Shown: positions 37,096-39,562 of the stretch, in pieces
How positions within the stretch are numbered: position 1 is the first letter of the stretch
Layout of the letters: every line of letters starts with the position of its first letter
Assembly: GCA_012837705.1 (NCBI GenBank)
Contig: DUQQ01000008.1
Location: 1-64,000 of the forward strand
Source: Hydrogenispora sp.
GTDB taxonomy: Bacteria; Bacillota; UBA4882; UBA10575
Reading direction: 5' to 3'
DNA: 64,000 nt
Notes under the pieces: model-generated
Database searches by the model: none
Told to the model about the DNA's origin: nothing
Seen by the model: only the letters and a program-made list of their open reading frames with translations
Position numbers and translations under genes: made by a program

Positions 37096-37139
37096 AAACA
37101 CCCCCTGGTTGTGACCAACCTGAACGGGGGTGTTTTTTT
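37096..37139 (+). terminator. Rho-independent terminator after pheT
   Basis: AAACACCCCC (internal GGTTG/CCAACC hairpin) GGGGGTGTTT + T-run. Confidence 0.85.
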
Positions 37140-37248
37140 CTGTATTTTTGGACATAAACAGTTAAAAAAAGTGAATATTCGGTTTATCTCTGGATGAATA
37201 AACGATGAATATTCACCGATATTTACAATAAAAGGAGGAGGCATCTAC

Positions 37249-37884
37249 TTGATCCTGAAAAACTTGGCGACGTCATGGGCACAAGCGCTTTCACGGATTG
37301 CCGGGGAAACCGACCCGTACAAAATTGCGTTAGCCCGTTACATGCTGGAAAGTCTCCTTTCTAGCATCCTCTCCCTACTTTTCATCCTGCTTTTCGGGCT
37401 GATCTTCGGTGTCTTAAAAACAGCAGTTCTTCTGACTGTGGTCGTTATGCTCTTGAAGGCTCTTATGGGCGGTTTACACCTGAAAACCCCGTTCCGCTGT
37501 GCTCTAGTCGGGGCGATTATGACTATCATCCTTAGCTATATTGTTCTTTTCCTCCCCTTTCATCAGCTTCCAACACTACTCCAATTATGGGTCTTTGTCT
37601 TCATGATTTATATTGTCTGGAAGCAAGCACCCCTTGAAGCAAAGGGAAAACCTTTGACCACTGAACAAAAGAGGGGACTAGCCCGCAAATCACGGATTGT
37701 GATCCTTCTGATCGTTTTCATCTGCTGGTGCTGGCCACAGGGTTTTGTGACAAATGAACTCTTTTACGGAACGGCGTTTCAAGTCTTAAACTTAACGAAA
37801 CCGATGGCGCAGGCGATCGACGGCCTCGACCAACTCCTTGATCGAGGGTGGAATAAGTTTCAAGGGTACATAAAAGGAAAATAA
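37249..37884 (+). CDS. agrB: AgrB-like accessory gene regulator peptidase
   Basis: Multi-TM protein with GGLHLKTPFRC: His77 and Cys84 (H-x6-C), matching the catalytic His/Cys spacing of AgrB; followed by an AgrD-like peptide. Confidence 0.9.
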   Translation: MILKNLATSWAQALSRIAGETDPYKIALARYMLESLLSSILSLLFILLFGLIFGVLKTAVLLTVVVMLLKALMGGLHLKTPFRCALVGAIMTIILSYIVLFLPFHQLPTLLQLWVFVFMIYIVWKQAPLEAKGKPLTTEQKRGLARKSRIVILLIVFICWCWPQGFVTNELFYGTAFQVLNLTKPMAQAIDGLDQLLDRGWNKFQGYIKGK

Positions 37885-37902
37885 GGAAAGGAGGATAGTA
37901 AA

Positions 37903-38019
37903 GTGAGAAAATGGATCTTTTCGGCGATCCTGTCGGTGTTGGCGGTATTGGCTACTTCTACAATGAGTATGGCGTGCTGGATTTTATATTATCAACCCGA
38001 AGCACCCCAAAAACGGTAA
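37903..38019 (+). CDS. agrD: AgrD-like cyclic autoinducer peptide precursor (38 aa; absent from ORF track)
   Basis: GTG start after AAAGGAGG: MRKWIFSAILSVLAVLATSTMSMACWILYYQPEAPQKR; amphipathic leader, Ala-Cys core, C-terminal YQPExP recognition motif typical of clostridial AgrD. Confidence 0.9.
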   Translation: MRKWIFSAILSVLAVLATSTMSMACWILYYQPEAPQKR

Positions 38020-38067
38020 GTGAATCGAATAATTTATTCTGAAACATGATGACAATTTTTGAGCGGA

Positions 38068-38090
38068 TTAATTGTTTGGCACACAATTAA
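38068..38090. repeat. inverted repeat in agrD-receptor intergenic region
   Basis: TTAATTGT-TTGGCAC-ACAATTAA, perfect 8-bp arms. Confidence 0.7.
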
Positions 38091-38137
38091 GCTAAAAGAA
38101 TGTTTCCTAATAACTACAAAGAAATATGAACTTCTTC

Positions 38138-38172
38138 AGTGGACGTGTGTATTAATATTGCATACGTCCACT
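38138..38172. repeat. inverted repeat/hairpin upstream of the receptor gene
   Basis: AGTGGACGTGTG-TATTAATATTG-CATACGTCCACT, 12-bp arms with one G-T; not followed by a T-run. Confidence 0.7.
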
Positions 38173-38211
38173 CTATAAATTATTTTTGCTTTCGAGGCAG
38201 GTGCAAAATCT

Positions 38212-39528
38212 TTGCCAAAAGAAGTGTTACTGGAGCTAATAAAAAGTAAGAATTATTTTATTTTTCTTTTAACAATAGGCGTTTTCTTACTGAACTGGAC
38301 AGTTATACTTAAACTAGGTCTAGTAATTCTTCGGTGTAATGTAGATACTAAAAGATTAATTTTCCCCTGGGCTTTAATTGGGGCTACTTATAGTCTCTTT
38401 GCAAAACACGTTATCCTAAATTATCTGTATTTTCTCACCAGTATACTCCTAATATACCTAATACTAATAAAAATCAGTAAGGCACAAGCGGATAAAGCTT
38501 TTTTTGCGGCATTAATCTCACTACTGGTTGTTGTCTTCAGTTTTTTACTAATAGGACAACCTCTCTTACTCCATAGTAAATTTCGCCCTTTAATGTTTGG
38601 GCCAACAGGTGTAATAATTGGAAGTTTAGTAGAGGCTATTTTACCGATATTTTTTGTTCTGATGTATCGTAACCATAGACATTCCGAACTAAACAAAGAC
38701 AAAACGTATTTTCTAAACGTTACTGTTAATATTATCCTTTTATTTATTGTATATTGTTTATTTGCGATCATTTTTTATTTCCTTGCAAATTGCAGTGATT
38801 CGATCCGGTGGCAAATCTTAATCAGTGAATTTATTCTGATTGGTATCACATTTTTTGTTTTTATTCGGATTAGAACTACCTTTAAAAAAGAACAACAAAG
38901 GAGCGAAGAAAACCACAGCAACTACCTTCTAAAAACGATCCTTTCCAAGCAACGAGAGTATCGTAATTTTTTTCAGGTGATTAGGACAATGGCGGAAGGG
39001 GGGAAAACCAGCGAGATCGTGGACTATATCGACGATATTTTCGTGGAGATGTCACTGGTGGAGACTTTTGATGAAGAAAATCCCATCTTCACCTCATTGC
39101 TAGTGGCAGAGCAGATTAAAGCAAAAGAAAAGGGGATAATCATTACCAGCACAACAAAGACAACTCTGAGCGAGTTAAAAGAACCGGTGAAAGTTTACGA
39201 CATTTTCAAGGAGTTACTCCAGTATTTTGTCGCTTGCGAAGAAGAAATCAACACTAATACGCATCATCTGAACATCGAAGTCAGCGAAGATAAGCAGCAT
39301 TATTCCTTTATGATTACGCGACAAACGGAGGATGGGGAGAAAAGCTCAGGTCCATGGGCAGAGTGCACACCTCTCGATGGGGATCAAACGCTACAACCGA
39401 TTAAAAAGCGGATTAAACAACTTCATGGGCAGTTCTATTATCTTTACAAAGGCAATGACTTAATTGGTTGCCTGTTCAAAGTAGGGAAGGTCAAACACAA
39501 GCAGTTTCCCTTTCCGATTGGTTTGTAA
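38212..39528 (+). CDS. AgrC-like polytopic membrane receptor with degenerate histidine-kinase core
   Basis: About 6-7 hydrophobic segments, then KQREYRNFFQVIRTMAEGGKTSEIVDYID, which aligns by eye to the AgrC/SpoOB-type 'RHDYxNHLQVI' helix but with R248 in place of His; no N-box Asn or G-box recognised in the C-terminal region. Confidence 0.65.
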   Translation: MPKEVLLELIKSKNYFIFLLTIGVFLLNWTVILKLGLVILRCNVDTKRLIFPWALIGATYSLFAKHVILNYLYFLTSILLIYLILIKISKAQADKAFFAALISLLVVVFSFLLIGQPLLLHSKFRPLMFGPTGVIIGSLVEAILPIFFVLMYRNHRHSELNKDKTYFLNVTVNIILLFIVYCLFAIIFYFLANCSDSIRWQILISEFILIGITFFVFIRIRTTFKKEQQRSEENHSNYLLKTILSKQREYRNFFQVIRTMAEGGKTSEIVDYIDDIFVEMSLVETFDEENPIFTSLLVAEQIKAKEKGIIITSTTKTTLSELKEPVKVYDIFKELLQYFVACEEEINTNTHHLNIEVSEDKQHYSFMITRQTEDGEKSSGPWAECTPLDGDQTLQPIKKRIKQLHGQFYYLYKGNDLIGCLFKVGKVKHKQFPFPIGL

Positions 39529-39532
39529 CCCG

Positions 39533-39562
39533 ACTCCTTTGGAAAAGAAGGAGTTTTCTTTT
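39533..39562 (+). terminator. Rho-independent terminator after the agr-like cassette
   Basis: ACTCCTT-TGGAAAAG-AAGGAGT + TTTTCTTTTTTT. Confidence 0.85.

Follow-up and report, generated by a model that had tools for sequence, protein, structure and literature searches.

The agr system is the textbook circuit that runs from a peptide to a kinase and from the kinase to a regulator, and the Spo0B phosphotransferase is a soluble protein that keeps its phospho-accepting His. In a stretch of 64,000 nucleotides from Hydrogenispora sp. (the window; genome G000, 2.41 Mb and 97% complete), a locus was found that resembles S. aureus agrBDCA in carrying members of the AgrB and AgrD families and a polytopic sensor joined to a cytoplasmic domain of predicted AgrC fold. 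It differs in that the receptor is without phospho-His, N box, and G boxes, no AgrA is encoded next to it, and seven of the eight genomes of the genus contain no LytTR protein. With the clostridial AgrC-type receptors of 440 to 480 aa (e.g., L281_102 and L191_23), the receptor shares the sensor, further helices, a SPOB_a-type DHp region, and a GHKL ATPase region, but the N and G2 residues persist in those clostridial receptors that were aligned, and the His is missing from just one of them. Like Spo0B, it combines a SPOB_a-like DHp region with a degenerate ATPase fold; here, however, Arg stands in place of the His, and the protein is a membrane receptor. C. difficile Agr1 (agrB1D1 without agrC or agrA; PMC8534292) is likewise an agrBD pair without AgrA, but no receptor has been identified for Agr1, whereas here a receptor gene is linked to agrBD, syntenic, and exchanged with it. 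Caulobacter DivL (PMC4211667) also has a histidine-kinase fold with the phospho-His replaced and works without kinase activity, but in DivL the N, G1, F, and G2 boxes persist, the sensors are of the PAS type, and there is no linkage to a peptide signal. In the open PMC literature, which covers the field only partly, no AgrC-AgrD paper mentioning a pseudokinase was found.

The interval between pheT and zapA contained agrB, agrD, and the receptor gene as its only genes among the ORFs of the window, all on the plus strand (Table 1). With no further gene there, the observation in the original prediction that this interval holds no LytTR or AgrA-type regulator was correct.

Table 1. Features of the agr-type locus, with positions in the window
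Feature	Position	Strand	Basis or remarks
Terminator-like hairpin with T-run, pheT-agrB gap	37096..37140	+	AACACCCCC...GGGGGTGTTTTTTT, read from sequence
agrB, AgrD-processing membrane protease	37249..37884	+	TTG start; PF04647 match
agrD, autoinducing-peptide precursor	37903..38019	+	38 aa, GTG start; TIGR04223 match
Hairpin or palindrome, agrD-receptor gap, core GACGTATGT/ACATACGTC	38138..38172	+	RNA fold z-score -6.75
Receptor, AgrC-type pseudokinase	38212..39528	+	438 aa, TTG start; orthologues, PDB match, catalytic residues absent
Sensor module, residues 1-160, multi-helix membrane domain	38212..38691	+	hhalign
DHp-like helical hairpin, residues 230-285	38899..39066	+	Weak SPOB_a match, model helices, lowest pN/pS
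Invariant Q-R-E-Y-R-N motif, Arg at phospho-His position	38950..38967	+	Alignment
CA-like (ATPase-fold) domain without N box, G1, and G2	39067..39486	+	Alignment, cytoplasmic model
Terminator-like stem with T-run, 3' of receptor, 5' of zapA	39532..39555	+	Terminator scan

The hairpin downstream of pheT was retained in most members of the genus; it was missed by the terminator scan because its loop exceeds the length rule of the scanner. The scan gave 3 terminators where 2.6 were expected by shuffling, and the stem downstream of the receptor is weak when taken alone. With one hairpin 3' of pheT and another 3' of the receptor, agrB, agrD, and the receptor may form a transcription unit of their own. 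The core of the hairpin between agrD and the receptor was identical in all nine genomes of the genus (g1) and of g6, while its outer arms varied in sequence between species with pairing preserved. It could be an RNA processing element, an attenuation element, or an operator; an Rfam search across the cassette returned no family, and a promoter scan remained at chance level. An inverted repeat farther upstream (37171-37217) was rejected as weak (z -1.77) and not clearly conserved in relatives. The low G+C content of the membrane part of the receptor (27 to 33%) was dropped as evidence of transfer because codons for hydrophobic residues are A/T-rich.

The peptide arm appeared to be standard, judging from the protein families. 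AgrB matched PF04647 with an E value of 3.8e-30 (105 bits; cut-off, 23), and its catalytic residues H77 and C84, already pointed out in the original prediction, were invariant among 10 homologues; no second AgrB was found in the genome. The predicted 38-aa agrD-like ORF proved to be a member of TIGR04223 (E value of 5.9e-9; 35.9 bits; cut-off, 19), with the short amphipathic leader, ring Cys, and C-terminal recognition tail (YQPEAPQKR) expected of AgrD. The pattern C-x-x-x-[FYW]-YQP was common to the AgrD orthologues, and the predicted ring is C-W-I-L-Y, its size being inferred from known AIPs.

Against Pfam, the receptor matched no family at the cut-off, the sole relevant signal being SPOB_a at an E value of 0.1. 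A profile of the family receptors nevertheless matched the intact AgrC-type receptor L281_102 over residues 27 to 408 (E value of 4.6e-21). The sensor module alone matched AgrC-type sensor domains in hhalign (E value of 6e-6) and, in addition, stand-alone sensor proteins of 150 to 170 aa (E values of 2.8e-8 and 2.7e-7), compared with E values of 0.05 to 0.3 for the controls (AgrB, other membrane segments, and reversed decoys). Structure models reached a mean pLDDT of 71 for the whole receptor and 79 for the cytoplasmic part, and the top Foldseek matches of both in the PDB were S. aureus AgrC structures (6e52 and 6e95; E values of 6e-7 to 4e-6); the cytoplasmic model also resembled other histidine-kinase catalytic domains. 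Searching the PDB with the receptor sequence gave chance membrane matches only. The receptor is therefore a real, degenerate relative of AgrC, with an AgrC-type membrane sensor domain and, according to the models, the AgrC cytoplasmic fold. The description of a polytopic receptor with an AgrC-like but degenerate cytoplasmic part thus stood. The receptor is, moreover, not of unknown kind but a degenerate AgrC. The idea of a new fusion between a five-helix protein and a kinase was rejected, as intact AgrC-type receptors elsewhere share the layout.

The stand-alone sensor homologues, membrane proteins of 150 to 170 aa, were encoded in the wider phylum (L277_57, L251_1, L199_3, L238_87, and L255_5) and in the class (L049, L051, and L056). 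They adjoined agrBD together with separate kinases or HD-GYP proteins; hence, sensing and output can be encoded separately.

Alignment of the receptor with intact relatives placed Arg at the phospho-accepting His (residue 248) and Tyr at the N-box Asn, and both G2 glycines were lost. The catalytic boxes are QRHDFRN, N-x-x-x-NA, NNGP, and GLGL in intact relatives belonging to a different family of the class; the receptor of the window has QREYRN and ELLQYFV instead, with nothing recognizable at G1 and G2. E249 and N252, an E-x-x-N following the dead His position, were retained. All fused receptors of the family that were aligned carried Arg in place of the His, and N, G1, and G2 were lost together. 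For comparison, kinases near agrB were collected from 100 loci across the phylum; among the 64 aligned, after six misaligned rows were left out, 63 had the His, 63 had the N-box Asn, and all 64 had both G2 glycines. By alignment, then, the receptor is a dead kinase: the residues of an active kinase (phospho-His, N box, and G boxes) are absent, and with Arg at the DHp site, a phosphotransferase of the Spo0B type would likewise lack its phospho-accepting residue. What was found instead is a kinase fold in which the replacement of the phospho-His is itself conserved, as in the pseudokinase DivL. The original prediction that the receptor does not by itself run a His-Asp phosphorelay agrees with these losses. 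The counterevidence named there, homologues whose H, N, and G boxes are intact, was encountered only among distant relatives, in the other family of the class and more widely in the phylum; orthologues down to ∼27% identity were all dead.

Partial losses were also seen in other proteins. In L212_26 (G116), an AgrC-type receptor beside agrB, the His is replaced by Asp and the ATP domain is intact, an independent partial loss. The locus L048:6691-8472 (G025) encodes tandem agr-linked kinases, the first with His replaced by Tyr and an intact ATP domain and the second with the His kept and the ATP site lost; judging from these residues, they are likely a trans-phosphorylating pair. Spo0B-like proteins with an intact His and no ATP site were encoded at L044:6719-7642 (G010) and L047:1258-2043 (G027), the former adjoining a Crp-like regulator (assigned by eye) and the latter a LuxR-type response regulator.

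Of the 16 family genomes, 14 had the dead receptor, which lay beside agrBD in 11 of these 14, spanning four genera; agrBD with a degenerate receptor and no agrA, an arrangement that the original prediction had proposed to survey, does recur. Orthologues throughout the genus shared 52 to 75% identity. The order agrB-agrD-receptor-zapA was found in 8/8 genomes of the genus and in one g6 genome, preceded by pheT wherever the contig reaches; in G001, the contig ends just upstream of agrB and the receptor contains a run of N, and in G005, agrD was located by direct translation. In two further genera (G010 and G011), agrB-agrD-receptor occupies another genomic location, and in another genus (G009, G014, and G015), the dead receptor is present with agrB elsewhere in the genome, the G009 receptor being split over two contigs. 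Neither agrB nor the receptor was found in the family genomes G008 and G013. All genomes compared were draft or metagenome assemblies, and the named relatives were uncultured Bacillota metagenomes whose isolate codes presumably point to anaerobic digesters.

In the two closest informative pairs, pN/pS was 0.23 to 0.24 for the receptor and 0.20 to 0.24 for AgrB. The lowest values in the receptor (0.11 to 0.16 in the closest pairs), below those of AgrB, belonged to the DHp-like helices that surround the dead His, and the sensor evolved faster than the DHp region. Of 27 residues invariant in a nine-sequence alignment, 7 fell within 247 to 256, a number reached in 0.035% of cases in a scan with positions shuffled over the cytoplasmic part. 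Purifying selection thus acts on the receptor, and most strongly near the dead His. Chance and decay to a pseudogene were rejected as explanations, since the frame, the gene order, and the dead motifs recur in the whole genus and in three other genera, and pN/pS is ∼0.23 in the two closest informative pairs.

In a tree of cytoplasmic domains, the dead receptors, including those of genus g3, formed one clade with L044_35 and L047_50 (SH-aLRT, 100). The latter two have kept the His and lost the ATP site, and loss of the ATP site is common to the whole 13-member clade. This grouping fits an order in which ATP binding was lost first and the His later, on a long branch with an unsettled inner order and an uncertain exact origin.

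Between G006 and G007 (loci L035 and L036), a tract of ∼2.2 kb, which begins in the middle of agrB, spans agrD and the receptor, and reaches the start of zapA, was ∼100% identical, whereas the flanks (pheT, cvpA, and the next gene) were ∼80% identical. The receptors differed at no synonymous site, compared with a pS of 0.49 for cvpA. An identical tract within such flanks indicates that the cassette moves as one unit and that agrBD and the receptor were recently exchanged together between two species of the genus, as expected if peptide and receptor work together. The contigs stem from separate assemblies; an assembly chimera would be a less probable explanation. Receptor searches of plasmids and of viral contigs returned none.

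Some of the seven genus genomes without LytTR proteins are 97 to 99% complete, and AgrA has thus been lost and does not act in trans. The window genome has two LytTR proteins, a LytT beside a LytS-type kinase and a 147-aa protein on a small contig. A conserved AgrA in trans, the other finding that would have spoken against the original prediction, was accordingly rejected: the genus-wide search was negative, and the one LytTR response regulator of the window genome pairs with LytS. The lack of an adjacent regulator, on the other hand, is not unusual. Among 100 agrB loci sampled in the phylum, neighbors within 1.6 kb on the same strand were a kinase with a LytTR regulator in 26, a kinase alone in 32, an HD-GYP protein in 27, mixtures in 3, and none of these in 12, some counts being lower bounds because of contig ends. 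An agrBD pair without adjacent AgrA is therefore common, while a dead AgrC is uncommon.

Taken together, the data make it somewhat probable that the locus is a complete agr-type cassette in which the AgrC-derived pseudokinase, gated by the AIP, uses its docking helix to bind a receiver in trans and may also dephosphorylate it. AgrB would cut and cyclize AgrD to a hydrophobic thiolactone peptide, which would be released and then bound by the sensor domain, shifting the cytoplasmic helical hairpin of the receptor. Because the receptor would neither bind ATP normally nor accept phosphate, its output would have to be protein contact; most likely, the receiver domain of a response regulator, or else another pair of DHp helices, would dock on the invariant Q-R-E-x-R-N face. 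The docked regulator might then be either held or dephosphorylated via the retained E-x-x-N. Receiver docking, possibly with phosphatase activity, is favored because E-x-x-N fits the phosphatase motif E/D-x-x-T/N that follows the His position in HisKA kinases (PMC11502775) and because DivL, a His-less kinase, can act by binding a response regulator (PMC4211667). The motif is defined for HisKA, and the SPOB_a/AgrC DHp is a different family, so that E-x-x-N could instead be retained for dimer packing.

The window genome encodes 29 receiver domains, and two Spo0A-type regulators are present in each of the eight genus genomes; the latter are candidates only as targets of the receptor. Tentatively, and with less confidence, the same reading may be extended to the whole family as agr signaling without receptor phosphotransfer, in which the peptide would switch a dead AgrC that acts directly on a global regulator, e.g., a Spo0A paralogue, by binding or dephosphorylating it. 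If true, such contact with a global regulator would be a new output mode for agr. A cassette that retains peptide, protease, and sensor without catalysis implies that the sensing part of agr can be connected to an output by contact instead. Considered with the variety of neighbors of agrBD in the phylum survey (kinases, GGDEF/HD-GYP proteins, or a dead kinase), it suggests that agr serves as a module for signal input that feeds several kinds of output. With a defined receptor, the question of orphan agrBD signaling becomes testable.

The main rival to receiver docking, which we regard as unlikely, is that the pseudokinase heterodimerizes with an active histidine kinase encoded elsewhere and, on binding the peptide, switches this partner on or off. 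The best-conserved part of the receptor is its DHp helices, through which kinases dimerize, and the complementary defects of the L048 kinases, one His-less and one ATPase-less, indicate that trans pairing may occur in the group. There is also precedent in ChrS-HrrS, a His-independent pseudokinase heterodimer being known for ChrS (PMC9491836), and in DivL acting on CckA. Such pairing usually requires closely related DHp domains, however, and the receptor was the sole SPOB_a-like match in the window genome, in which no other SPOB_a kinase, Spo0B-like protein, or cut-off-level HATPase_c_5 kinase was found.

It is less probable still that the receptor is a decoy or scavenger that binds peptide without output, tuning the extracellular signal or blocking foreign peptides. 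Absent catalytic residues, the lack of a nearby regulator, and a sensor evolving faster than the DHp region would all fit. In a decoy, nothing would keep the cytoplasmic part from decaying, but purifying selection acts on it, with the helix of the dead motif the most constrained, and the genome search gave no other AIP receptor that might be spared. That the receptor is an ordinary, active kinase whose unusual motifs hide a cryptic active site from alignment is very improbable: the fold still resembles AgrC and E249 and N252 flank the dead His, but no orthologue has a His at the expected DHp site, N, G1, and G2 are absent together, and the ATP site is lost throughout the 13-member clade. A decaying agr remnant heading for loss, to which the absence of both agrB and receptor from G008 and G013 might point, is largely refuted by the open frame in orthologues, the pN/pS of ∼0.23, the Arg shared by every fused receptor aligned, the fixation of the locus in eight g1 genomes and one g6 genome, and the recent exchange of an intact cassette.

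The survey also revealed a recurrent arrangement in which agrB-agrD is followed by a membrane HD-GYP protein, present in 27 to 30 of the 100 agrB loci (L192, L198, L199, L241, and L262, among others) and in the class (L148, L149, and L154). No description of a link from agr to c-di-GMP was found in the part of the AgrB/AgrD/HD-GYP literature covered, which consists mostly of reviews and pathogen studies. The HD-GYP proteins of the survey loci checked carry GGDEF as well (c-di-GMP turnover), and some of these loci also hold a stand-alone sensor protein.
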